A stretch of 64,000 bases of DNA from NCBI RefSeq assembly GCF_003351045.1, contig NZ_QQZY01000003.1, positions 310,001-374,000 of the forward strand, given 5' to 3'. Shown piece after piece: positions 11,801 through 27,990 of the stretch. The DNA is from Gaiella occulta (GTDB taxonomy: Bacteria > Actinomycetota > Thermoleophilia > Gaiellales > Gaiellaceae). Positions within the stretch are counted from its first letter, which is position 1. Each line of letters opens with the position of its first letter. The position numbers and the translations under genes are program-made. Below the pieces are notes generated by a model. That model saw only the letters and a list, made by a program, of their open reading frames with translations, did not search any database and had not been told where the DNA came from.

Positions 11801-12724
11801 ATGCGGCGTACTTGGCAACCGTCCGAGGCGACGGGGGGCGAACGTCAACCGGCTTCCTTGCGCGCTGATGCGGGCACGGTGGCGATGTCGGCCGCCCTGC
11901 AGCCATCGAAGTTCCGCATCCGGTTGTTCGGCCGGCTCGAGGTCGCCCGCCACGACCGGACGCTCGGCCCTCGTGACCTCGGTGGCATCAAGCCGAAGCA
12001 GGTGCTCGAGATTCTGTTGCTTGCTCGGGGTGCCCACGTGACCCGTGATCGTCTCGCAGAGTTGTTGTGGGGTGACACGCTTCCGCAGAGCACCGGCGGG
12101 GCGTTGGAAACGTATGTGTCGGTGCTACGACGGCGGCTCGCGTCCGGGAAAGAGGGGCACAAGGTCGTTCTGACAGGGCCCGGGTCCTACCGGTTCTCGA
12201 TCGAGAGCGCAGAGGTCGATCTCGATGCGTTCGATGAGCTGGTCCTGCTTGCCGGGGCTGCAGCCCCTCGGGCGCGGCGGGACCACCTTGAGGAGGCGCT
12301 CGCGCTCGCGCGTGGCGAGATCCTCGAGGACGAGCCGTACGCCGAATGGGTGCTCGATCTGCGTGATAAATACCGCGAGCAGGTGCAGCAGGCCACACTC
12401 GACGCGGCCAACCTGGCCCTCACCGATGGCGACTTCGCGGGCGCACACGCGCACGCGCAGGCCGCGATGGCGCGCGACCGCCTCGACGAGCGTGCCTGCC
12501 GGGCGGCCATGCGAGCGCTCTACGCGCTTGGCCGCCGGCACGATGCGCTTCGCGCCTGCGAGCGCTGTCGTGCGTTGCTCCTGCAGGAGCTCGACGTCGA
12601 TCCCATGCCGGAGACGGAGGCCCTGGCTTTGTCGATTCGCTGCCATGCCGAGCCGGACGATGTCCTTCCAGCCCTCAGCTCCAGAACGCGATTTCAGCGA
12701 ACCGCCCCTGCAGGGGGTCCGTGA
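11801..12724 (+). CDS. SARP-type transcriptional activator (OmpR-like DNA-binding plus BTAD domain)
   Basis: A 307-residue regulator of the Streptomyces antibiotic regulatory protein type. ATG 11801 is chosen over the upstream GTG 11726 because a purine-rich stretch precedes it. After about 30 non-conserved residues comes an OmpR-like winged helix (FRIRLFGRLEVARHDR, KPKQVLEILLLA, DRLAELLWG, TYVSVLRRRLA). The bacterial transcriptional activation domain follows (VDLDAFDELV, LARGEILEDEPYAEWV, ALYALGRRHDALRACERCR). No ATPase domain follows. It directly precedes the peroxidase gene in the same direction, and TCGAG direct repeats lie in the gap, so it may activate that gene. Confidence 0.88.
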   Translation: MRRTWQPSEATGGERQPASLRADAGTVAMSAALQPSKFRIRLFGRLEVARHDRTLGPRDLGGIKPKQVLEILLLARGAHVTRDRLAELLWGDTLPQSTGGALETYVSVLRRRLASGKEGHKVVLTGPGSYRFSIESAEVDLDAFDELVLLAGAAAPRARRDHLEEALALARGEILEDEPYAEWVLDLRDKYREQVQQATLDAANLALTDGDFAGAHAHAQAAMARDRLDERACRAAMRALYALGRRHDALRACERCRALLLQELDVDPMPETEALALSIRCHAEPDDVLPALSSRTRFQRTAPAGGP

Positions 12725-12886
12725 CCCCTGCGTTCCGCGTCGCCCAGGTTTGTGTCAGGTCGGCCGGGCGTTGGGTGCCCGAGACGTTCGCTCATACTGC
12801 GAGCACCCGCCATCTCCGGATCGCGCTGAGATCCACTGGCAAAAGGTTTTCAAAAGCCTCGGGTGCGAGGGTGCGCTGCCAGTAGC

Positions 12887-12930
12887 GACCAGCGACCCTC
12901 GAGACCAGCGACCCTCGAGACCAGCGATCT
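12887..12930 (+). promoter_or_regulatory. TCGAG-containing 16-bp direct repeats upstream of the peroxidase gene
   Basis: The unit GACCAGCGACCCTCGA occurs at 12887-12902 and 12903-12918, with a partial third copy from 12919. TCGAG falls at 12899-12903 and 12915-12919, 16 bases apart. Known SARP regulators bind direct repeats with a TCGAG-like core, so this is a candidate target for the neighbouring SARP protein. The repeats end about 15 bases before the start codon and may overlap the untranslated leader. The AGGAGG ribosome site lies immediately after, at about 12932-12937. Confidence 0.5.
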
Positions 12931-12944
12931 CAGGAGGCGACAGC

Positions 12945-15900
12945 ATGAGGTGGAGGCCAGATCTCCGTCACTCGTCCCGCTCGCAGCGCTTTGCGCGAGC
13001 GGTGGTCGGCATCCTGGTGGCGGCCACGATCGCCAGTCTCGCACTCGTCGCCGGTATCTCGAACAATAGTGCCCACGCAGCCGCGCCGGTCGGACAGGGC
13101 TTCAACCTGAACGCAGGCGACCTGCGGTTCATCCTAACGCAGATCAAGATCGCCGAAGCCCATGCGGCCGGTGGGCAACTCCTCGGGCCTGGTCCCAACC
13201 AGGTCTCGAGTCCGCTGCTCCCGTTCGGCCTGCGGACCGTCGACGGTTCGTTGAACAACCTTCAGCCCGGACAGTCGAAGTTCGGTGCCGCGGACACCAT
13301 CTTCCCGCGCCTGCTCGTTCCGAAGTACCGTCAGGCAGAGGGCGCGACCTTCGATCCGGATGGGCCTGGCCCACTCGGTGTCGGCAGCCCCTCGGCGTAC
13401 ACGCAGAAGTCGGGGCTCGTCTTCGACTCGCTGCCGCGACGGGTCAGCAACCTCGTTGTCGACCAGACGTCGAGCAACCCGGCCGCCGTGGCGGCCGCCG
13501 GCGTGGGCGCCGTGCCCGATCCCGTCTCCGGCACGCTGTTCATTCCGAACCGGGCGCCCGACCTGGGTCTGGCGGCGCCGTTCAACGGGGTGTTCACGCT
13601 GTTCGGCCAGTTCTTCGACCATGGCCTCGACCTCTTGACGAAGGGCGGCAGCGGCGCGGTCTTCATGCCGTTGCAGGCCGACGATCCACTCTTCAACCCG
13701 GCCCCAGGTACGCCCAACTTCATGGTCCTGACGCGGGGGTCCAACCAGCCCGGCGCCGACGGCATCCTCGGGACAGCCGACGATGTCCAGGAAGGGACGA
13801 ACACGACGACCCCGTTCGTCGATCAGAACCAGACCTACACTTCGCATCCGTCCCATCAGGTGTTCCTGCGTCAGTACACGCTGCTGGCTGGGAAGCCGCT
13901 CTCGACCGGCAAACTGCTCGAAGGCGCGCTCGGCAACATCGGCAACTGGGCCGACGTCAAGGCGCAGGCCCGGACGATGCTCGGCATCCAGCTCACCGAC
14001 GCGGACGTGACGGACGTGCCGCTGCTCGCGACCGACCCGTACGGCCGCTTCCTGCCTGGCCCCGTCCGCGGCATGCCGCAGATCGTGATGCCGGGCAACG
14101 TGCTCGTCGAGGGCGATCCCGCAGCGAATGGCGGACTGGGTGTTGCCGTCGCCGGCTCGGTCAAGACCGGACATGCGTTCCTCAACGACATCGCGCACAG
14201 CGCGGCCCCGACCTTCTCCTCGCCCGGCGTCCTGTTCCCCGACACCGATACTTCAGTCGGCGGGAGCTTGGTTCCGGCGGTCCCTGCGGGCAGCTACGAC
14301 AACGAGCTGCTCGACAAGCATTTCATCACAGGCGATGGTCGTGGCAACGAGAACATCGGCCTGACCGCCATCCACACCGTCTTCCACGCCGAGCACAACC
14401 GACTGGTGGATGAGATCGGCCTGCCCGGCGGGCTGCTCGACACCCTGCTGACACCGGCCGAGGTCGCTGATTGGAAGTCTGTCAACCCGGCGTCCGGCTG
14501 GGGCTACGGGGAGCGGCTGTTCCAGGCGGCGAAGTTCGTCACCGAGATGGAATACCAGCACCTCGTGTTCGAGGAATTCGCGCGCAAGGTGCAGCCCTCG
14601 ATCCGCGTGTTCGATGCATACCACTCCAACATCGATCCGGCGATCGTGGCCGAGTTCGCGCACACGGTCTATCGCTTCGGTCACTCGATGCTGGACGAGA
14701 CGGTGGCACGCACCAATGCCAGTGGCACAACCAACGACATTCCGCTGTTCGGCGCATTCCTCAACCCTGTTGAGTTCAACAACGGAGGGGGCGCCGGAAC
14801 GCTGACCGCCGACCTGGCGGCGGGCAGCATCGTGCGCGGCATGTCACGACAGGTCGGCAACGAGATCGATGAGTTCGTCACCGACGTCCTGCGGAACCGG
14901 CTCGTCGGCCTGCCGTTGGACCTGCCGGCGATCAACATCGCGCGCGGCCGAAGCGAGGGCATCCCTTCGTTGAACTCGGCCCGCAGGCAGTTCTTCGCCG
15001 CGACCGGCAACTCGGCGCTGGCGCCCTACGGGAGTTGGACAGACTTCGCGCCTAGCCTCAAGCATCCGCAGACGCTCGTCAACCTCGTCGCCGCCTACGG
15101 CACACACCCCAATATCACAGGGCTTGATCCGGACGGTGCAGGCCCCATCCTGGCCGGCGGTCTGCGAGCCAGGCGTGCTGCAGCCGACCAGCTCGTCAAC
15201 GGCACGACGTTGCCCGGGCCAGACGGCATCCTCGCTGGCGCTGGTGGCGCTGACGACATCCTCCCGCCGGCGAACCGTCTCGACTTCATGAACGGCACCG
15301 GTGCCTGGGCCGACGTTTCGGGCGTCACGATCACCGGTCTCGACGACGTCGACTTCTGGGTCGGCGGTCTCGCCGAGGCGCAGTCCCCGTTCGGCGGCAT
15401 GCTCGGTTCCACCTTCGACTTCGTCTTCAAGACACAGCTGGAGAACCTGCAGGACGGCGACCGGTTCTACTATCTGTCGCGTCTGGCGGGCCTCAACCTG
15501 GTGACCCAGGTCGAGGGAAACACGTTCGCGGAGCTGATCGCGCGCAACACGGGCGTCGAGGGCCTCCCGGCCGACGTCTTCTCGCGGGCCGACCTGCTGT
15601 TCAATCTGGCGAACCTCGGGACGAGTGGTCCGATCCTCGACGATCCCAGCACACCCCAAGTCGAGTCGACCATGCCCGACCTGACGCGGATGCCCGACGG
15701 CACGATTCGCTACACCGGCCCCCTCCACGTCGTCTGGAACGGCACGGACAACCCCGCTGTCGTCGACCGCATCAGGTCGAGTCTGGGTGACGACACCCTC
15801 CGCGGCAACGGCGGCGTTGACATCATGGAAGGCGGCACCGGCAACGACCAGTTCATCGGTGGCGCCGGCGACGACATCCTCACCGATACCTTCGGCAACG

Positions 15901-18900
15901 ACGACTTCAAGGGCGGCGACGGCAACGACGTCATCAGCTCCGGACCCGGCTTCGACGTCGATCAAGGCGGTCGAGGCAGTGACTTCATCGTCGGTGGGGC
16001 CGATCCCACGGAGACCTTCGCAGGCCCCGGGAACGACGTCGTCTTCGCCGGTGAGTCGACCGACACGGCGTTCGGTGGCGACGGTCACGACTGGATCGAG
16101 GGCGGTAACCAGGGCGACGTGCTCGTGGGTGAGGACGGTGCCCCGTTCGCGCTCGACCCGACTCCGAGCAACGACGTCCTCGCCGGCGACGGCGGCGACG
16201 ACAAGCTCCAGGGCGAGGGCGGCGACGACATCATGGTCGCGGGCCCGGGCCTCGACAATTTCGATGGCATGCTCGGTTTCGACTGGGTTACCCACAGGCT
16301 CGATCCGCAGGCCGCCGATTCCGACCTGCTCCGGCTCATCGGGGTGGTCCCGGTCCCGATCCTCCTCGTTGACCGCTTCCGCCGTGTCGAGGGCCTGTCG
16401 GGCTGGAACAAAGACGACATCCTGCGCGGCGACAACGAAACCGCCTTGACCCTGGCCGGACTCGGCCAGGAGCTGACCGCCGCCGGCATCAACAACATCC
16501 CCGGGCTGGCAGGCCTGCTCCCTGCCGGCGCAATCCAGTTCACGGGGGGCAACATCATTCTCGGCGGTGCCGGCAGCGACCTGATCGAGGGTCGCGGCGG
16601 CAACGACATCATCGACGGCGACGCGTGGCTGAACGTGCAACTACGGGCACCCGACCTCGCAAACCCTGGCCTCTTCAAGCTCGTCGACAGCATGACCCAG
16701 CTTCGCACGGACGTGCTCGCAGGCAGGATCAACCCGGGCGACATCACGGTCGTCCGCAGCATCGTGACGACCGGGGTTCTGCCGGCCGACGTCGACACCG
16801 CCGTGTTCTCGGGTGCGCGGGCGAGCTACACCCTTACCACCAACGCGGACGGCACCCTGACCGTGGCGCACCTGGGCGGCGCCGGCATCGACGGCACCGA
16901 CACGCTCCGGAACACCGAACGACTGACGTTCTCCGACCAGACCATCCTCGTGCCGACGCCGCCTGCGAACACGGTGTTGCCGTCGGTGAGCGGCGTAGCG
17001 CAGGTGGGGCAGACGTTGACGAGTTCGACCGGCACCTGGACGGGCACGACTCCGATCACGTTCACGCAGCAGTGGCAGTCGTGTGTTGGCGTCACCTGCT
17101 CCAACATCGTGGGTGCGACGGGCAGCACGTATGTGCCGGTCGTCGCGGACGTCGGCAAGACGCTGCGCGTGCACGTGACCGCGAGCAACGGCGCCGGTCC
17201 CCCGGTTGCGGCCGACTCCGTGCAGACGGTCGTTGTGACGGCTGCTGCGGTGGCGCCGCCTGTGAACACGGTGTTGCCGTCGGTGAGCGGGATTGCGCAG
17301 GTGGGGCAGCTGTTGACGGGTTCGACGGGTACCTGGTCGGGCACGACCCCGATCACGTTCACGCGCCAGTGGCAGTCGTGTGTTGGTGCTACCTGCTCCG
17401 ACATCGCGTTGGCGACGGGCAGCACGTATGTGCCGGTCGTCGCGGATGTCGGCAAGACGCTGCGGGTGCATGTGACGGCGACCAACATCGCGGGCGGCCC
17501 GATCGCGGCGGACTCCGTGGAGACGGCGGTTGTGGCGGCGGCGCCGGCGGTGACGAGCTTGGTGCCGGACCCTGATTTCGAGTTGAGTCCGACGCCGTGG
17601 TTCTTCACGAATGGGGCGGGCACGTTTACGTGGGCGACTGATCAGTCGTTGTCTCCGACGCATGCCTTGAAGATCGTCACCTCGGCGTCGACGTTGTCGC
17701 GCTGGTTGACGAACACGTCGTTGGTGGCGGCGCAGGCGGGGCGGACGTATACGGCCCGGGTGTCGGCGAAGACGAGCGGTGTCGCTGGTGCTGCCCGGCT
17801 CACGTTGACGTTCTGGAATGCGTCGTCGGTCTATCTCGGGGTGACGGCCGACTCGGCGTCCTTGGCGGGCACCCAGGACTGGACGCCGCTGACGGTCTCC
17901 CGGCAGGCGCCGGCGGGCACCGCCTTCGTCCGGGTCGAGCTGCGGCTGAACGGGCCCGGCAGCGCCTGGTTCGACAACCTCCTGCTGAGCGACGGGAGTG
18001 TGCCGCCGCCGTCGCCGGTCGCGCCGACGTTGTTGGCGTTGCCGCTTGTGTCGGGGTTGCCGCAGGTGGGGCAGACGTTGTCGGTCTCGACGGGGTTGTG
18101 GTCGAACGTGCCGACCTCGTTCGCCTATCAGTGGTTGCGCTGTGACGCTGGGGGCGCGGGCTGCGTGAGTATCGGGTTGGCGACGGCGAGCTCGTATCTG
18201 GTGGGGGCGGCTGATCTGGGGTCGACGTTGCGGGCGCGGGTGACGGCATCGAACGTGGCGGGTCCGGGGGCACCGGCGACGAGTGCGCAGACGGCGGTCG
18301 TGACGGCGCCGCCACCGCCGGCGCCGCCTGTGAACACGGTGTTGCCGTCGGTGAGCGGGATTGCGCAGGTGGGGCAGCTGTTGACGGGTTCGACGGGTAC
18401 CTGGTCGGGCACGACCCCGATCACGTTCACGCGCCAGTGGCAGTCGTGTGTTGGTGCTACCTGCTCCGACATCGCGTTGGCGACGGGCAGCACGTATGTG
18501 CCGGTCGTCGCGGATGTCGGCAACACGCTGCGGGTGCATGTGACGGCGACCAACATCGCGGGCGGCCCGATCGCGGCGGACTCCGTGGAGACGGCGGTTG
18601 TGGCGGCGGCGCCGGCGGTGACGAGCTTGGTGCCGGACCCTGATTTCGAGTTGAGTCCGACGCCGTGGTTCTTCACGAATGGGGCGGGCACGTTTACGTG
18701 GGCGACTGATCAGTCGTTGTCTCCGACGCATGCCTTGAAGATCGTCACCTCGGCGTCGACGTTGTCGCGCTGGTTGACGAACACGTCGTTGGTGGCGGCG
18801 CAGGCGGGGCGGACGTATACGGCCCGGGTGTCGGCGAAGACGAGCGGTGTCGCTGGTGCTGCCCGGCTCACGTTGACGTTCTGGAATGCGTCGTCGGTCT

Positions 18901-19067
18901 ATCTCGGGGTGACGGCCGACTCGGCGTCCTTGGCGGGCACCCAGGACTGGACGCCGCTGACGGTCTCCCGGCAGGCGCCGGCGGGCACCGCCTTCGTCCG
19001 GGTCGAGCTGCGGCTGAACGGGCCCGGCAGCGCCTGGTTCGACAACCTCCTGCTTACCCAACCGTGA
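12945..19067 (+). CDS. Giant secreted animal-type heme peroxidase with RTX-like repeats and Ig-like/CBM-like C-terminus
   Basis: A 2,040-residue exported protein. The start ATG 12945 follows a strong AGGAGG site. A signal peptide spans about residues 1-45. The peroxidase domain has the distal histidine H226 in GQFFDHGLD and the probable proximal histidine H580 in YRFGHSMLD. Calcium-binding nonapeptide repeats (GGTGNDQFIGGAGDDIL and similar) fill about residues 946-1102, with a second set near 1203-1226. C-terminally there are Ig-like modules (consensus NTVLPSVSG, QWQSC, ADVGKTLRVHVTA) at about 1340-1435, 1437-1533, 1689-1790 and 1792-1889. Jelly-roll-like modules (VPDPDFELSPTPWFF to AWFDNLLL) follow the second and fourth of these. 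The last 2 kb uses many TTG and GTG codons, unlike its neighbours. The substrate is unknown. Confidence 0.9.
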   Translation: MRWRPDLRHSSRSQRFARAVVGILVAATIASLALVAGISNNSAHAAAPVGQGFNLNAGDLRFILTQIKIAEAHAAGGQLLGPGPNQVSSPLLPFGLRTVDGSLNNLQPGQSKFGAADTIFPRLLVPKYRQAEGATFDPDGPGPLGVGSPSAYTQKSGLVFDSLPRRVSNLVVDQTSSNPAAVAAAGVGAVPDPVSGTLFIPNRAPDLGLAAPFNGVFTLFGQFFDHGLDLLTKGGSGAVFMPLQADDPLFNPAPGTPNFMVLTRGSNQPGADGILGTADDVQEGTNTTTPFVDQNQTYTSHPSHQVFLRQYTLLAGKPLSTGKLLEGALGNIGNWADVKAQARTMLGIQLTDADVTDVPLLATDPYGRFLPGPVRGMPQIVMPGNVLVEGDPAANGGLGVAVAGSVKTGHAFLNDIAHSAAPTFSSPGVLFPDTDTSVGGSLVPAVPAGSYDNELLDKHFITGDGRGNENIGLTAIHTVFHAEHNRLVDEIGLPGGLLDTLLTPAEVADWKSVNPASGWGYGERLFQAAKFVTEMEYQHLVFEEFARKVQPSIRVFDAYHSNIDPAIVAEFAHTVYRFGHSMLDETVARTNASGTTNDIPLFGAFLNPVEFNNGGGAGTLTADLAAGSIVRGMSRQVGNEIDEFVTDVLRNRLVGLPLDLPAINIARGRSEGIPSLNSARRQFFAATGNSALAPYGSWTDFAPSLKHPQTLVNLVAAYGTHPNITGLDPDGAGPILAGGLRARRAAADQLVNGTTLPGPDGILAGAGGADDILPPANRLDFMNGTGAWADVSGVTITGLDDVDFWVGGLAEAQSPFGGMLGSTFDFVFKTQLENLQDGDRFYYLSRLAGLNLVTQVEGNTFAELIARNTGVEGLPADVFSRADLLFNLANLGTSGPILDDPSTPQVESTMPDLTRMPDGTIRYTGPLHVVWNGTDNPAVVDRIRSSLGDDTLRGNGGVDIMEGGTGNDQFIGGAGDDILTDTFGNDDFKGGDGNDVISSGPGFDVDQGGRGSDFIVGGADPTETFAGPGNDVVFAGESTDTAFGGDGHDWIEGGNQGDVLVGEDGAPFALDPTPSNDVLAGDGGDDKLQGEGGDDIMVAGPGLDNFDGMLGFDWVTHRLDPQAADSDLLRLIGVVPVPILLVDRFRRVEGLSGWNKDDILRGDNETALTLAGLGQELTAAGINNIPGLAGLLPAGAIQFTGGNIILGGAGSDLIEGRGGNDIIDGDAWLNVQLRAPDLANPGLFKLVDSMTQLRTDVLAGRINPGDITVVRSIVTTGVLPADVDTAVFSGARASYTLTTNADGTLTVAHLGGAGIDGTDTLRNTERLTFSDQTILVPTPPANTVLPSVSGVAQVGQTLTSSTGTWTGTTPITFTQQWQSCVGVTCSNIVGATGSTYVPVVADVGKTLRVHVTASNGAGPPVAADSVQTVVVTAAAVAPPVNTVLPSVSGIAQVGQLLTGSTGTWSGTTPITFTRQWQSCVGATCSDIALATGSTYVPVVADVGKTLRVHVTATNIAGGPIAADSVETAVVAAAPAVTSLVPDPDFELSPTPWFFTNGAGTFTWATDQSLSPTHALKIVTSASTLSRWLTNTSLVAAQAGRTYTARVSAKTSGVAGAARLTLTFWNASSVYLGVTADSASLAGTQDWTPLTVSRQAPAGTAFVRVELRLNGPGSAWFDNLLLSDGSVPPPSPVAPTLLALPLVSGLPQVGQTLSVSTGLWSNVPTSFAYQWLRCDAGGAGCVSIGLATASSYLVGAADLGSTLRARVTASNVAGPGAPATSAQTAVVTAPPPPAPPVNTVLPSVSGIAQVGQLLTGSTGTWSGTTPITFTRQWQSCVGATCSDIALATGSTYVPVVADVGNTLRVHVTATNIAGGPIAADSVETAVVAAAPAVTSLVPDPDFELSPTPWFFTNGAGTFTWATDQSLSPTHALKIVTSASTLSRWLTNTSLVAAQAGRTYTARVSAKTSGVAGAARLTLTFWNASSVYLGVTADSASLAGTQDWTPLTVSRQAPAGTAFVRVELRLNGPGSAWFDNLLLTQP
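17252..17986 (+). repeat. 735-bp direct repeat, copy 1 (inside the peroxidase gene)
   Basis: This block encodes one Ig-like plus one jelly-roll-like module. It recurs at 18320-19054 with an offset of 1,068 bases. The only base difference I see is AAG in this copy against AAC in copy 2, within GTCGGCAAGACG, giving Lys versus Asn. Confidence 0.9.
18320..19054 (+). repeat. 735-bp direct repeat, copy 2 (inside the peroxidase gene)
   Basis: Second copy of the block at 17252-17986, ending 13 bases before the gene's stop. Near-identity at the DNA level, including silent positions, indicates recent duplication or gene conversion. Confidence 0.9.
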
Positions 19068-21721: not shown

Positions 21722-24052
21722 GTGCCTGTGTCGAGGTTCGTGCGGCAGTGGCGAGGCGTGCGTCTCCGTGGCATCTCGAGGAGGCGGGAACAGACACGCT
21801 TCCGTTTCGCGCCGGGCGCGCTCGCGCCCCTGTTCGTCACGGCGGCGATCCTGATGCTGCCGACGATCTCACTCGTGGTCCGCGCCGGTGGGGCGACGGC
21901 TGCGGGGCCGTCGGTGTCGGTACAGGTCGTGCTCGAGAATCCGGACTACGAGACGTTGGCCGTGGCCGGCGATGTCGCGTACGGCCGATCCACGTCGGAC
22001 GCTCACGCGATCTGGCGTTCGAGCGATCACGGGTTGACGTGGACGAAGGTGCTCACGCTCGCGTCGAACGAGCGGCTCGTCTCGATATCGGCGCTCTCGA
22101 GCGGGACGGTGCTCGCTCACGTCGATACCGGGTCGATGACGCTGTTCCGCTCGGGCGACCAGGGGGCGACGTGGACGCGCGTGTTGTCGTTGCCGAGCTC
22201 GCCGGTGTTCTACACGACGCTCACGCCGGCGTCGATCAGCGACGGCGCCGGGTACGTCTGGCTCGGCACCTACAACATCACAGCAGCGGACTTCCTGGGC
22301 GCGAACTACCTGTATCGATCCTCCGACGACGGTCGCAGCTGGGCGGTCGTGAGCTCGTCTACCGGGCACCGCCACATCCATGGTGTGAAATACAACGGGG
22401 CGAACGGGAAGCTCTACGTCTTCTTCGGCGATGCGAACGGCGGTGGCATCTGGGTCTCGTCCGACAACGGCATCTCGATCAGCCCGCTCTGCACCGACTA
22501 TGCCTGCACGATCATCGACGCCGCATTCGACCCGGGCGGCGCCTCGGCGGTGTTCGGGACGGACAACTACACCTCGCAGAACCGGATCGTCAAGGTGTCG
22601 CTCGCTGACGGCGCGCGGACGCAGATCATGAACATCCCGTACGACTCCTTTTCGGCCTACCGCCTCCCCCCGAGCACCTATCTGATCGGCACGACGCACG
22701 AGCCCGGCGTCCCGATCGTCGACCCGAACCTCCACCTCTACGTCTCGACCGACGGCGGCACGACCTTCACCGACGCCTACCGGATACCCATCCCCTTCGC
22801 CGACGGCCGCGCTGACCTCCAGGTTCAGTTCTCTTACCCAAACGGCGACTTCCCGATCCAGGTCGACGGCCACGGCACCATCGTCGCCCGCCTCGTCACG
22901 GCCGGCGGCGCGTCGCCTCCCGCAAACACGGTGCTGCCGGCCGTGTCGGGCACAGCCCAGGTCGGGCAGATCCTGACAAGCACGACCGGCAGCTGGACGG
23001 GCACCGTCCCGATCACCTACAGCCGCCAGTGGCAGTCCTGCAGCGGCGCCGACTGCACCGGCATCGCGGGCGCCACGGGCGCGACCTACGCGCCCGTCGC
23101 CGCAGACGTGGGCTTCGCGCTGCGCGTGCGCGTGACCGCCGGCAACAGTGCTGGCGTCCCCACCTCCGCCGACTCCACCCCGACCGCCGCGGTGGTGCCG
23201 GCCGGCGGCTCCAGCGGCGGCGCCGTTGCCGGCGGAGGTGGTGCCGGCGACGGTGGTGCAGGTGGCGGTGGTGCCGGCGGCGGTGGTGCCGATCTCTCTG
23301 TGACGGGGTCCGTCGAGCCTGCGAGCGCCCCGGTCGGTGGGACGCTGACGTGGCGGCTGCAGCTCGTCGACAAGAACCGTGCCACCGCATCCGGCGCCTA
23401 CGTCGATGTGCAGCTTCCAGGCGGAGTTTCGCTCGCGTACAGCCAGACCGATCGTGGCGCCGGCTGCAAGCCGCTCGGAGTGGCGTTGCGCTGCGCCCTC
23501 GACTACCTCGCCAACGACGCGCCGGTCGGAAACGTCACGCTGGTCACCAGCGTGACCACAGCGGGCGAGCTCGTTCTCCGCGCGGTCGGCGGCTTCGCTG
23601 CCGCGGACCCGGCACCCGCCGACAACACGATCACCCTGAAGGCCAATTCGCCGAGTGCATCGGCTCCCGAGCCCCCTGCGCCGCCGAGCCGGGGCGTGCA
23701 GAAGCCCCGGATCACGCACACGCGGCTGCTGCCTCTGCGCGCGCTCGCAGATCGAGGCGTCGCGGTCCTGGAGACCAGGGTCCGGGTCGACCGCCGGGCC
23801 CGGCTCACGGTTGTCGTACGCGACGTTCGTACCGGCGCGGCCGTGACGAGCTTTCCCGGCTCTCGGTTCGGCACGAGCGTCTTGCGGGCGGGGGCGAAGA
23901 CCCTGACGACCACCGTCGACAGGCGGACGGAGTTGAAGCTCAGGCTCCTCGTGCGCTACGCCGAGCTCACGGTGGGGCAGCGCTATGCCGTGATGGTCAC
24001 CGCCACGTCCGCGGGCGGCACGAGCCGGCTCCGTTTCCCGTTCGCTCGCTAG
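21722..24052 (+). CDS. Secreted multidomain surface protein: BNR-like propeller, Ig-like module, DUF11-like domain
   Basis: A 776-residue exported protein with an N-terminal hydrophobic signal after a basic stretch. Residues 60-395 carry repeated S-x-D-x-G-x-x-W motifs (SSDHGLTWTKV, SGDQGATWTRV, SSDDGRSWAVV, STDGGTTFTDA), the Asp-box pattern of sialidase-like beta-propellers. Residues about 398-490 form an Ig-like module closely related to those in the peroxidase (NTVLPAVSG, QWQSCSGADC). A glycine-rich linker follows (about 495-523), then a DUF11/CARDB-like domain starting ADLSVTGSVEP, and a C-terminal domain without a visible anchor. The start is GTG 21722 (GTG 21728 is possible). Likely adhesive or polysaccharide-binding; enzymatic activity is not shown. 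Confidence 0.82.
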   Translation: MPVSRFVRQWRGVRLRGISRRREQTRFRFAPGALAPLFVTAAILMLPTISLVVRAGGATAAGPSVSVQVVLENPDYETLAVAGDVAYGRSTSDAHAIWRSSDHGLTWTKVLTLASNERLVSISALSSGTVLAHVDTGSMTLFRSGDQGATWTRVLSLPSSPVFYTTLTPASISDGAGYVWLGTYNITAADFLGANYLYRSSDDGRSWAVVSSSTGHRHIHGVKYNGANGKLYVFFGDANGGGIWVSSDNGISISPLCTDYACTIIDAAFDPGGASAVFGTDNYTSQNRIVKVSLADGARTQIMNIPYDSFSAYRLPPSTYLIGTTHEPGVPIVDPNLHLYVSTDGGTTFTDAYRIPIPFADGRADLQVQFSYPNGDFPIQVDGHGTIVARLVTAGGASPPANTVLPAVSGTAQVGQILTSTTGSWTGTVPITYSRQWQSCSGADCTGIAGATGATYAPVAADVGFALRVRVTAGNSAGVPTSADSTPTAAVVPAGGSSGGAVAGGGGAGDGGAGGGGAGGGGADLSVTGSVEPASAPVGGTLTWRLQLVDKNRATASGAYVDVQLPGGVSLAYSQTDRGAGCKPLGVALRCALDYLANDAPVGNVTLVTSVTTAGELVLRAVGGFAAADPAPADNTITLKANSPSASAPEPPAPPSRGVQKPRITHTRLLPLRALADRGVAVLETRVRVDRRARLTVVVRDVRTGAAVTSFPGSRFGTSVLRAGAKTLTTTVDRRTELKLRLLVRYAELTVGQRYAVMVTATSAGGTSRLRFPFAR

Positions 24053-24478: not shown

Positions 24479-24817
24479 CTACTCGTGCCGGCGGGCTGCG
24501 ACCCGGCGAAGACCGAGGCCGGCGACGATCGCGACCGCGCCGAACAGGAGCACGAGACCGATGTTGAGCCCCGTGAACGGAAGCTCGCCCGAGCTGGCGA
24601 CGTTGGGCGCTGGGGTCGGAGCCGCAGTCGCAGTCACCTGCGGCTTCGCCGAGCTCTTTGCCCCCTTGCTGGCGGCCTTCACCTGCGGCTGTTCGCTCGC
24701 GATTGATGTCGTCTGGTTGTCGTACTGCGTCTTGACGGGAGTCGCTCCCGCGATCGGCGCACCCACGATCGCCACCACCGCACCAGTCGCAAGAGCTACT
24801 GCAAGTCGATTGGTCAT
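24479..24817 (-). CDS. Small LPXTG-type cell-wall-anchored protein
   Basis: A 112-residue sortase substrate. The N-terminus MTNRLAVALATGAVVAIVGA is a signal peptide. A low-complexity Ala/Lys/Pro middle follows, then the sorting signal LPFTG at about residue 80, a hydrophobic segment (LNIGLVLLFGAVAIVAGLGL) and the basic tail RRVAARRHE. It should be cleaved by a sortase and linked to the wall. No sortase gene is in the window. Two palindromes of the CCCTCG-CGAGGG type lie in its upstream region, shared with the divergent lyase gene. Confidence 0.85.
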   Translation of the reverse strand: MTNRLAVALATGAVVAIVGAPIAGATPVKTQYDNQTTSIASEQPQVKAASKGAKSSAKPQVTATAAPTPAPNVASSGELPFTGLNIGLVLLFGAVAIVAGLGLRRVAARRHE

Positions 24818-25126: not shown

Positions 25127-26836
25127 ATGACACCTCGCCGCCCCTCCCACGGTCACCGTCTCCCCGAGCGAGCCGGAGTCCTCGCTCGCCTCCGTGGTCA
25201 CGGCCGCAGCATCGTCGTCCACGCCACGCTGGGGCTCGTGCTCACCGTTGCCGTCCTCGGCGTGCTCACCGTCTCCTCGCCCGACGCGAAGGCAAGCGAG
25301 ATCGCGGGGACGTGGGAGGGGGGTGGATATGCGCCGTTCAGCACGCTCGAGTGTCCGCATCCGTCGACGCAGTTCCAGCTCGTGAGCTCACCCGTGCGTG
25401 AGGGGTCGTACGCGGCCCGGTTCAGCATCACGGGGAACGACGTGTGGTCGAACGGGTCTGTTCGCTGCCTGGCGGCAAAGTACGACACCGGGGAGACGAC
25501 GGGGATGGACAAGTACTTCCGTCTCTCTGTTTACATCCCGAGCCCGGGGATCTCGAGCAACCTGATCTGGGAGCTCCATCACCCGAGCAGTCTCTACAAC
25601 CTGCCGGGTTGCGGGATCGCGCCGTTCGCGCTGACGACCGACGGCTCGAGGCTGCTGTTCCGGATCGCGACCGGCGACTGCAAGGTCGGGGCCGTCAACT
25701 GGAGCTACTGGGAGCCGAACATCGTGATTCCCGGGTTGAGCCCGTATCCGAAGGACACGTGGATCGACCTCGTGATCCATATCCGCTTCTCGGAGTCGGC
25801 GAACGGCCTCGTCGAGGTGTGGAACCGCGTGGGCGGCGGCTCGTGGCCGTCGTCGCCGCAGCTGACGCGGAGCAACATCCCGACGATGCCGTTCTCCAAT
25901 GCGACCGGGGTGCACGACGCGAAGCTGTACACCGAGATGGGCCTCTACCCCGGTGGTCCGTATAGCGGGAGCGACACGATCTATCTCGACGACTACCGGC
26001 GCGAGTCGTCGCTTGCCGCTGCCCTGGGATCTTCCGCCCCGGCCCCCGCCCCGGCTCCGGCTTCGGCGCCCGCGCCAACTCCGGCTTCGGCGCCCGCGCC
26101 GGCTCCGGCTTCGGCGCCCGCGCCGGCTCCGGCTCCGGCGAAGCCCACGGCGCCGGCCCGGCCGGCGACTCCGGCGACGAGCCCGAAGAGCGCTGCGGGC
26201 GCGACCGCCGTGCCCGCGGCTCCAGGCGGGTCGGAGGCTGCCGTGAGGCTTCTCGAGGTGAAGCCCTACGTGATCGAATGGGACGGACGGCTGTTCCCGA
26301 CCCCTGGTGCGTTTCGGTCGTACCTGATCGGGCTCGGCATCGACTGGTCGGCCTTCCTCGAGAGGCATCCCGCCGTCGCGTCGCGGGTGGCGCTGCCGTA
26401 TGTCAGCTGGGACGGCAGGCGGTTCTACGACCAGGCCTCGCTCGCTCGCCTTCTGGCCGCACAGAGGGTTTCCTACGGTGCCTGGGCGCTGCGCCACCCG
26501 CAGGCTGCGGCGATTCTCGCAGGTCAGCCCGCCTCTTCGGCGCCGCGGACAGCGGCCGTGGTGCTCGAGAAGCGCGTTGCTCTCACCTGGGAAGGCATCG
26601 GGTTCACGACCGCCGGCGGGCTGCGAACGTTCCTCGCGCAGCGAGGCATCGGCTGGGACGCGTTCCTGTCACGGCACCCGGCCGTCGCGCAGCGGCTCGG
26701 CCTCTCGTCGGTGAACATGGGCGGGGTGCAGATCTACACGCGGAGCGCTCTCTCGCGCTGGCTCGCGGCACACGGCGGCAGCCTTGCGAAATGGGTGCTC
26801 AAGCACCCCGGGGCCGCCGAGAGGTTGACGGCCTAG
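25127..26836 (+). CDS. Secreted polysaccharide-lyase-like protein with a Pro-Ala linker and four C-terminal WDG repeats
   Basis: A 569-residue exported protein with a membrane segment at about residues 30-50. Residues 60-300 resemble the concanavalin-like polysaccharide lyases (heparin lyase I type fold): YFRLSVYIPSPG, IWELHHPSS, PKDTWIDLVIHIRFS and a closing TIYLDDYRRE. A Pro/Ala linker built of PAPASAPA-type units spans about 303-364. The C-terminus has four repeats of about 41 residues with the pattern WDGxxF-x(5)-L-x(3)-L-x(4)-W-x(6)-HPxxAxxL (about 383-569). The repeats may bind the wall or a glycan. The lyase assignment rests on recalled family pattern. A related lyase gene follows 71 bases downstream. 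Confidence 0.75.
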   Translation: MTPRRPSHGHRLPERAGVLARLRGHGRSIVVHATLGLVLTVAVLGVLTVSSPDAKASEIAGTWEGGGYAPFSTLECPHPSTQFQLVSSPVREGSYAARFSITGNDVWSNGSVRCLAAKYDTGETTGMDKYFRLSVYIPSPGISSNLIWELHHPSSLYNLPGCGIAPFALTTDGSRLLFRIATGDCKVGAVNWSYWEPNIVIPGLSPYPKDTWIDLVIHIRFSESANGLVEVWNRVGGGSWPSSPQLTRSNIPTMPFSNATGVHDAKLYTEMGLYPGGPYSGSDTIYLDDYRRESSLAAALGSSAPAPAPAPASAPAPTPASAPAPAPASAPAPAPAPAKPTAPARPATPATSPKSAAGATAVPAAPGGSEAAVRLLEVKPYVIEWDGRLFPTPGAFRSYLIGLGIDWSAFLERHPAVASRVALPYVSWDGRRFYDQASLARLLAAQRVSYGAWALRHPQAAAILAGQPASSAPRTAAVVLEKRVALTWEGIGFTTAGGLRTFLAQRGIGWDAFLSRHPAVAQRLGLSSVNMGGVQIYTRSALSRWLAAHGGSLAKWVLKHPGAAERLTA

Positions 26837-26907: not shown

Positions 26908-27990
26908 ATGCGACTGGTCATCGCGGCCTTCGCCGCCCTCGCCGTGCTCGTCACCGGATCGGCGGCCTTCGCAGGCGGATCGGCCGGAATCCTGTGGAAC
27001 GGCTCGTTCGCCTCCGGCGTCGCCTCGTGGACGGACGTCCAGGCGAAGGACGGCGGGTTCACGATCGTGCCCGCGCCCGCGGGCCGGGCCGGCATGGCCG
27101 GACGGTTCGTGGTGCGACCCGGTGACGTGCCGATCGCTGCTTCGGGCGAGCGCGCCGAGGTGCTCAAGCAAACGGGTGAGCAAGCCGGCACGGTCTCGTT
27201 CTGGGCGTGGTCCGTCTACTTCGCTCCCGGCTCGTCGTCGAGCCCCGGCACCTCGTGGAACGTCTTCACGCAGTGGCACCAGTCGGGCCCGACCGGGGTG
27301 CAACCGCTTTCCTTCGAGATCACGAACGAGAGAGGGCGCGAATGGCTGCGGCTCCGCGTCTGGGGCGGAAACGCGGACAATCCCGTGCGGCGGGCATGGC
27401 GGCTGGCGCCGCTCGAGCGTGGACGCTGGTACGACTTCGCACTCGAGGTCGACTGGGCGCCTGACCAGTCCGGACGGGTCGCCGTCTGGCTCGACGGCCG
27501 CCAGGTCGTGCCGGAGACGCAGACACCAACCCTGTACACGGGACAGTCCGTGTATCTCAAGCAGGGGTTCTATCGCGCTCCTTCGAACGTCACGAGCGAG
27601 CTGTACATCGCCGGGACTCGACGCGGCGCATCGCTCCAGGACATCGGCATCACGCCCGTCAAGAAGGCGACGAAGGCGCCTTCGCGGCCCGCTCGCGCCA
27701 CGGCCGCGCCGGCGAGCAAGGTGCGGCCCGCGATCGTCGGCCTGCCGAAGCAGGGCACGGTCATCAGATCGTCACTCGGTATCTGGTCGAAGAAGCCGAC
27801 TCGCTACGCCTACCAGTGGCAGTGGAGCACCGACCGCGGCGCCACGTGGATGAACGTGAAGGGCGCCGTTCGGCGAACGTTCGACGTCAGTGCGACCTTC
27901 GTGGGAGCCAGCGTGCGAGTGGTCGTGACAGCCTCGAATGCGGCGGGGTCGACCCGTGCGGCCAGCAGGCCGGTCTCGCCGACGGCCTGA
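26908..27990 (+). CDS. Secreted polysaccharide-lyase-like protein with an Ig-like C-terminus
   Basis: A 360-residue protein. Signal peptide MRLVIAAFAALAVLVTGSAAFA. Residues about 25-255 fit the heparin-lyase-I/PF14099-type fold: SFWAWSVYFAPGSSS, WNVFTQWHQSG, RGRWYDFALEVDWAPD, VWLDGRQVVPE and LKQGFYR. After a basic Ala-rich linker, the last 85 residues form an Ig-like module related to those in the peroxidase (YQWQWSTDRG, VVVTASNAAGS). Same orientation as the preceding lyase and the following flippase. The polymer it cuts is unknown. It may act on the product of the adjacent capsule locus. Confidence 0.8.
   Translation: MRLVIAAFAALAVLVTGSAAFAGGSAGILWNGSFASGVASWTDVQAKDGGFTIVPAPAGRAGMAGRFVVRPGDVPIAASGERAEVLKQTGEQAGTVSFWAWSVYFAPGSSSSPGTSWNVFTQWHQSGPTGVQPLSFEITNERGREWLRLRVWGGNADNPVRRAWRLAPLERGRWYDFALEVDWAPDQSGRVAVWLDGRQVVPETQTPTLYTGQSVYLKQGFYRAPSNVTSELYIAGTRRGASLQDIGITPVKKATKAPSRPARATAAPASKVRPAIVGLPKQGTVIRSSLGIWSKKPTRYAYQWQWSTDRGATWMNVKGAVRRTFDVSATFVGASVRVVVTASNAAGSTRAASRPVSPTA

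Follow-up and report, generated by a model that had tools for sequence, protein, structure and literature searches.

The gene at 25127–26836 on the forward strand of the analyzed stretch of DNA from Gaiella occulta (64,000 nucleotides, referred to as the window) encodes what is, judging from its sequence, a lyase-like secreted protein with putative activity. Its features, all on the forward strand, are listed below in order of position.

25127..26836, forward strand: gene for a putative secreted polysaccharide lyase of 569 amino acids with a fourfold C-terminal repeat (open frame, codon bias, PF14099)
25211..25297, forward strand: predicted signal peptide; hydrophobic stretch at residues 29–47, then AKA-S, a likely cleavage site by eye (hydropathy, charge)
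25334..25993, forward strand: polysaccharide lyase domain PF14099, residues 70–289 (E 1.3e-11, 45.3 bits)
26033..26236, forward strand: Ala/Pro-rich linker, about residues 303–370 (sequence)
26267..26395, forward strand: repeat unit 1 (unit comparison, single-copy profile, model with a β-hairpin and three helices)
26396..26524, forward strand: repeat unit 2 (unit comparison, single-copy profile with the top score of the four, model with pLDDT 89.2)
26525..26575, forward strand: 17-residue linker separating the two unit pairs (low confidence in the AlphaFold2 model)
26576..26704, forward strand: repeat unit 3, sister of unit 1 (unit comparison, single-copy profile, model)
26705..26833, forward strand: repeat unit 4, sister of unit 2, with a diverged start, MGG for WDG (unit comparison, single-copy profile, model)

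The lyase domain scores above the Pfam gathering cut-off for PF14099, which is 29.9 bits, and this bears out the preliminary description of the protein as lyase-like. The net charge is +3 before the hydrophobic signal stretch and −1 after it. Two motifs, WELH(H/Q)P and LYTE(M/V)GLY, are common to the five lyases that we compared.

The lyase sits in an exopolysaccharide locus. Its neighbors encode a second PF14099 lyase, a flippase and an alginate-lyase-like protein, followed further on by a sugar transferase, a heparinase-like protein, Wzy, Wzz and a ParA/AAA-type ATPase, and the locus also holds glycosyltransferase, asparagine-synthase-like, epimerase and nucleotidyltransferase genes. A gene on the reverse strand (24479–24817), divergent from the lyase gene and with no Pfam match, encodes a small secreted protein that by eye resembles a sortase substrate, with an LPFTG end, a transmembrane stretch and positive residues. 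The frame at 21722–24052 (forward strand), beside the lyase genes, encodes a secreted-looking protein with Sortilin/BNR-type repeats and DUF11. A very long frame at 12225–19067 (forward strand) combines an animal haem peroxidase match (E 1.7e-56) with RTX calcium-binding repeats; the N-terminal part of the latter probably reflects an over-extended start.

The second PF14099 lyase lies directly downstream (26908–27990, forward strand, E 7.6e-32) and ends in a tail that appears Ig-like by eye (YQWQWSTDRGATW...); by eye, the same tail occurs twice on L160, just past the end of the window. A search with the lyase domain at E up to 1e-8 detected two further lyases in the same genome, one past the window end and the other on another contig, and two in genome G077, and found nothing in the other 101 of the 103 family genomes. 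In its catalytic part the window protein is thus a member of the PF14099 polysaccharide lyases, but it differs from these four relatives, none of which carries the repeat: L160 has the Ig-like tail, L162 has another tail, and the two G077 proteins have no C-terminal module. Because the G077 relatives do without such a module, the enzyme as such needs no repeat. The lyases of the locus appear, by eye, to have undergone a module swap, with the repeat on one and Ig-like tails on others.

The fourfold repeat placed at the C-terminus by the preliminary description was recovered both by comparing the units with one another and by a profile of single-copy relatives. Its span had been given as 26270–26833, which is correct to one codon, the units starting at 26267, and its unit length as about 41 residues, which we corrected to 43. 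Of the sequence marks noted for the units, HP is found in all four, whereas WDG in its exact form is confined to units 1 and 2, with WEG in unit 3 and MGG in unit 4. Five of the six unit pairs outscored all 2000 shuffles, and the score of the remaining pair, unit 1 versus unit 4, was reached by 14 of the 2000. Identity is 21 of 43 residues for units 1 and 3, 16 for units 2 and 4, and 9 to 12 for the other pairs. Because of this sister likeness, and because units 1–2 and 3–4 each form a contiguous pair, the pattern suggests duplication in two rounds, in which one unit would have given rise to an A-B pair and a second doubling of that pair to the four copies.

The single-copy profile was built from 17 members from other genomes, with the units of the window left out. 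It matched the lyase frame with an E value of 5.1e-28 and units 1 to 4 with independent E values of 1.3e-5, 8.3e-11, 1.5e-5 and 4.6e-7, respectively, the match to unit 4 spanning profile positions 13–41 only; no other frame of the 64-kb window was matched. In the reverse direction, a profile of the four units detects 17 of the 17 single-copy members, which is circular, as the members were originally found in this way. Because they were first found by their likeness to the units, the single-copy profile test is not wholly independent. The GC content by codon position within the repeats (0.68, 0.57 and 0.85) fits that of coding DNA in this sequence. When sister units are compared, the non-synonymous fraction of change is lower than the synonymous one (0.35 vs 0.58, and 0.44 vs 0.59), which we read as a modest sign of constraint, while the four non-sister pairs are near saturation (0.55–0.57 vs 0.57–0.66) and hence little informative.

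The four-unit profile was used to find relatives in genomes of the same family, and a 21-row profile then refined the set. The resulting motif is W-x-G-x-x-F, about five residues, and F/L-x-x-W-L-x-x-R-G-x-x-Y-x-x-W-x-x-R-H-P. One Leu and the His are conserved in every one of the 21 alignment rows, and W, F, G and W are nearly invariant. The net charge across these rows ranges from +8 to −4; because of this spread, we ruled out a uniform basic charge, and with it a single electrostatic ligand. That the unit is a small domain of about 43 residues forming a separate family is well supported, and the family appears to be unregistered. The preliminary description, which proposed a profile search, had recognized no family, and the searches agree: no significant match was found in Pfam (21 members scanned), in NCBIfam (the window protein and its repeat domain), in PHROGs (three proteins) or among PDB sequences, where nothing was better than E 0.54 (five weak rows, set aside). 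Also set aside as weak were PHROGs 18205 (E 0.029) and 21806, a minor tail protein (E 0.068), both against the window domain, and six Pfam rows of E 0.12 or worse with one member each, HeH/LEM included. The part of the literature covered by a narrow search held nothing on the repeat.

Structure prediction, proposed earlier as a check, was carried out with AlphaFold2. For one unit, with 14 rows, the model reached a pLDDT of 89.2 and a pTM of 0.66, with a β-hairpin and three short helices in the order β-β-α-α-α. In the model of the 193-residue domain each unit has the same elements (mean pLDDT 82.9), and the mutual arrangement of the four units is left undefined, because the pTM is 0.45. Foldseek gave no clear match in the PDB for the domain (best E 1.4) or for one unit (best E 2.4), nor among viral models for one unit (best E 1.4). 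With VIA-align 2, 2 of 209 chains reached a Z of 2 or more against the domain, with Z 2.2 for one, and 0 of 38 did so against one unit. The fold of the domain may be one that is still unsolved; with a domain of this size, an absent PDB match is no proof of this.

The spacing G..Y..W...HP prompted a comparison with LysM (PF01476), which is similar in length (43–44 residues) and occurs outside the cytoplasm in tandem or singly, as does the new unit. In an hhalign comparison, this stretch of the unit aligned with LysM G.......... N, where the 14 aligned columns were placed. However, the hhalign probability was 0.1 and the E value 0.57 against 26 LysM sequences from genomes of the same order, and 0 of 21 members matched the Pfam LysM profile at E up to 1, so that LysM kinship was ruled out on sequence. 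The predicted order of the unit, given above, also differs from the β-α-α-β order of LysM. No LysM chain was named in the Foldseek lists, an absence compatible with a shared fold. Tandem surface-binding repeats on secreted enzymes are a well-known kind; SLH (PF00395), GW modules and CW_7 are such short repeats, often located at the C-terminus, and act by avidity to keep secreted proteins on the surface. The lyase repeats resemble them only in how they might work; 0 of 21 members matched SLH or the other Pfam surface-binding repeats at E up to 1.

A profile search of 129 genomes of the order Gaiellales detected at least 22 copies in at least 14 genomes, all in the window's own family, for which the sample was 103 genomes. 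At E up to 0.001, at least 16 of the 129 genomes were matched, and two partial, weak ones (G046 and G289, E about 5e-4) were dropped; rows weaker than 1e-3 were also dropped unless a profile later confirmed them, as for G073:C151, G001 and G069. An initial single-sequence search had matched 34 of the 103 family genomes at E up to 0.1, mostly weakly and some with stops, and only the profile-confirmed ones were kept. The two nearly identical copies of G096, on two contigs, may be one locus. In a sample of the class, at least 16 of 399 genomes were matched, namely the same 14 and the two partial ones. In a sample of the phylum, at least 5 of 396 were matched: the window's genome, three with partial rows (G449, G502 and G741, which show no motif by eye and were dropped) and G422, whose match is good (E 1.4e-7). 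The latter belongs to another actinobacterial class, in which it alone matched among the 5 genomes searched. A strict DNA pattern, applied to one genome per species (84,980 species), found at least 11 stretches, 9 with family members; of the other two, L100 is interrupted by a stop codon within the match and L101 failed the profile. In viral contigs the DNA pattern found 0 stretches and the domain search no relative. Within these searches, the domain thus appears almost wholly confined to one actinobacterial family. Tandem copies were seen in the window protein only, among the copies found. In its own genome, which is 97.9% complete, the four copies on the lyase were the only ones found, other rows being at E 0.27 or worse, and no carrier with three transmembrane helices was found there.

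Elsewhere in the order, beyond the window's own genome, 18 copies are found, two of them at the end of subtilases and 16 in small proteins. One subtilase (L122) is a Peptidase_S8 protein by Pfam scan and the other (L127) looks alike by eye; 9 of the 16 small carriers were scanned with Pfam, and none had a family above the cut-off. In 14 of the 16 non-peptidase carriers, a transmembrane helix lies 12–20 residues before the motif; of the other two, L043 is truncated where its contig ends and L040 shows no transmembrane helix. Where a transmembrane helix follows the motif, its far side is the more positive one in 11 of 11 carriers, which places the motif outside the cytoplasm. The charge around the first helix favors an N-terminus inside in 8 of 14 carriers, is tied in 4 and speaks against it in 2 (L003, a 113-residue protein, and L008). 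The lyase and the two subtilases have signal-like N-termini. By topology prediction, the domain location is therefore extracytoplasmic. In an alignment of 8 of the small carriers, 6 of the 7 invariant columns fall in the motif. In G422 the copy stands at the end of an fn3-domain protein. The unit is a module found on unlike carriers, including three-helix and one-helix membrane proteins, subtilases, the fn3 protein and the window lyase.

The contexts of most single-copy genes vary and are often of a housekeeping kind. Two of these genes have polysaccharide genes as neighbors: one (L116) adjoins hexapeptide transferase and DegT aminotransferase genes, and another (L126) adjoins CpsB/CapC genes with a MATE-type flippase near. 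By eye, those of three related genomes (L113, L115 and L123) adjoin rplY-like and/or prs/glmU-like genes, and L112 and L116 lie downstream of a clpC-like gene.

We propose, with a probability of about 0.45, that the repeat is a lineage-restricted extracytoplasmic module whose four copies keep the lyase at the envelope, beside an exopolysaccharide locus; the anchoring is what we infer. Its ligand would be a common component of the inner envelope or of the external membrane face, for which a lipid-linked glycan, a membrane-anchored glycopolymer, the lipid surface and a resident protein are candidates. Duplication in two rounds would have given the window protein its four copies, whose many weak contacts could add up by avidity and retain the secreted lyase at the cell surface. 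The N-terminal lyase domain, on its flexible Ala/Pro linker, might then trim the product of the surrounding exopolysaccharide genes. The preliminary description had suggested an anchor to the wall or the capsule. Since the motif lies close to the membrane in most single-copy proteins, a common ligand in mature peptidoglycan or in a distant capsule is less likely; the predicted topology favors a membrane-near ligand, and peptidoglycan is not favored.

The repeats could also act as a carbohydrate-binding module, with the exopolysaccharide substrate of the lyase, and not the cell, as the place of attachment. Tandem C-terminal modules joined by a flexible linker to a polysaccharide lyase in an exopolysaccharide locus would fit such an arrangement, as would the conserved aromatic residues of the motif. 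However, the other carriers are not recognizable carbohydrate enzymes, most of them hold the domain next to the membrane, and the G077 lyase relatives do without the repeat, so that we consider this explanation unlikely.

A small domain shared by membrane proteins and secreted enzymes of one lineage might alternatively serve homotypic or heterotypic protein-protein contacts, either docking secreted carriers to membrane proteins or making the lyase oligomerize. The nearly complete genome of the window shows only the four lyase copies and no three-helix carrier, and because no membrane-bound copy was found there, docking to one is unlikely in this organism; we give the protein-protein explanation a rather small chance overall. 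The few copies, the narrow distribution and the diverged unit 4 are what would be expected if the units had no ligand and were a spacer in the structure or left over from duplication, but the invariant Leu and His, the nearly invariant W, F, G and W and the modest constraint between sister units argue against it, and we regard this as quite improbable. Retention of the lyase at the envelope remains our preferred reading. A more far-reaching form of it, which we hold to be possible but doubtful, is that the new family recognizes a membrane-proximal envelope component peculiar to the lineage, was shuffled by evolution between secreted enzymes and small membrane proteins, and retains the lyase through its four copies, with a fold that is possibly unsolved.

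The domain defined by the analysis is clearly bounded, its fold is predicted with confidence, and its carriers are few. The envelope of this actinobacterial lineage is little studied; if the domain is a surface-binding module, it would give access to an envelope component that is so far undescribed in the lineage.
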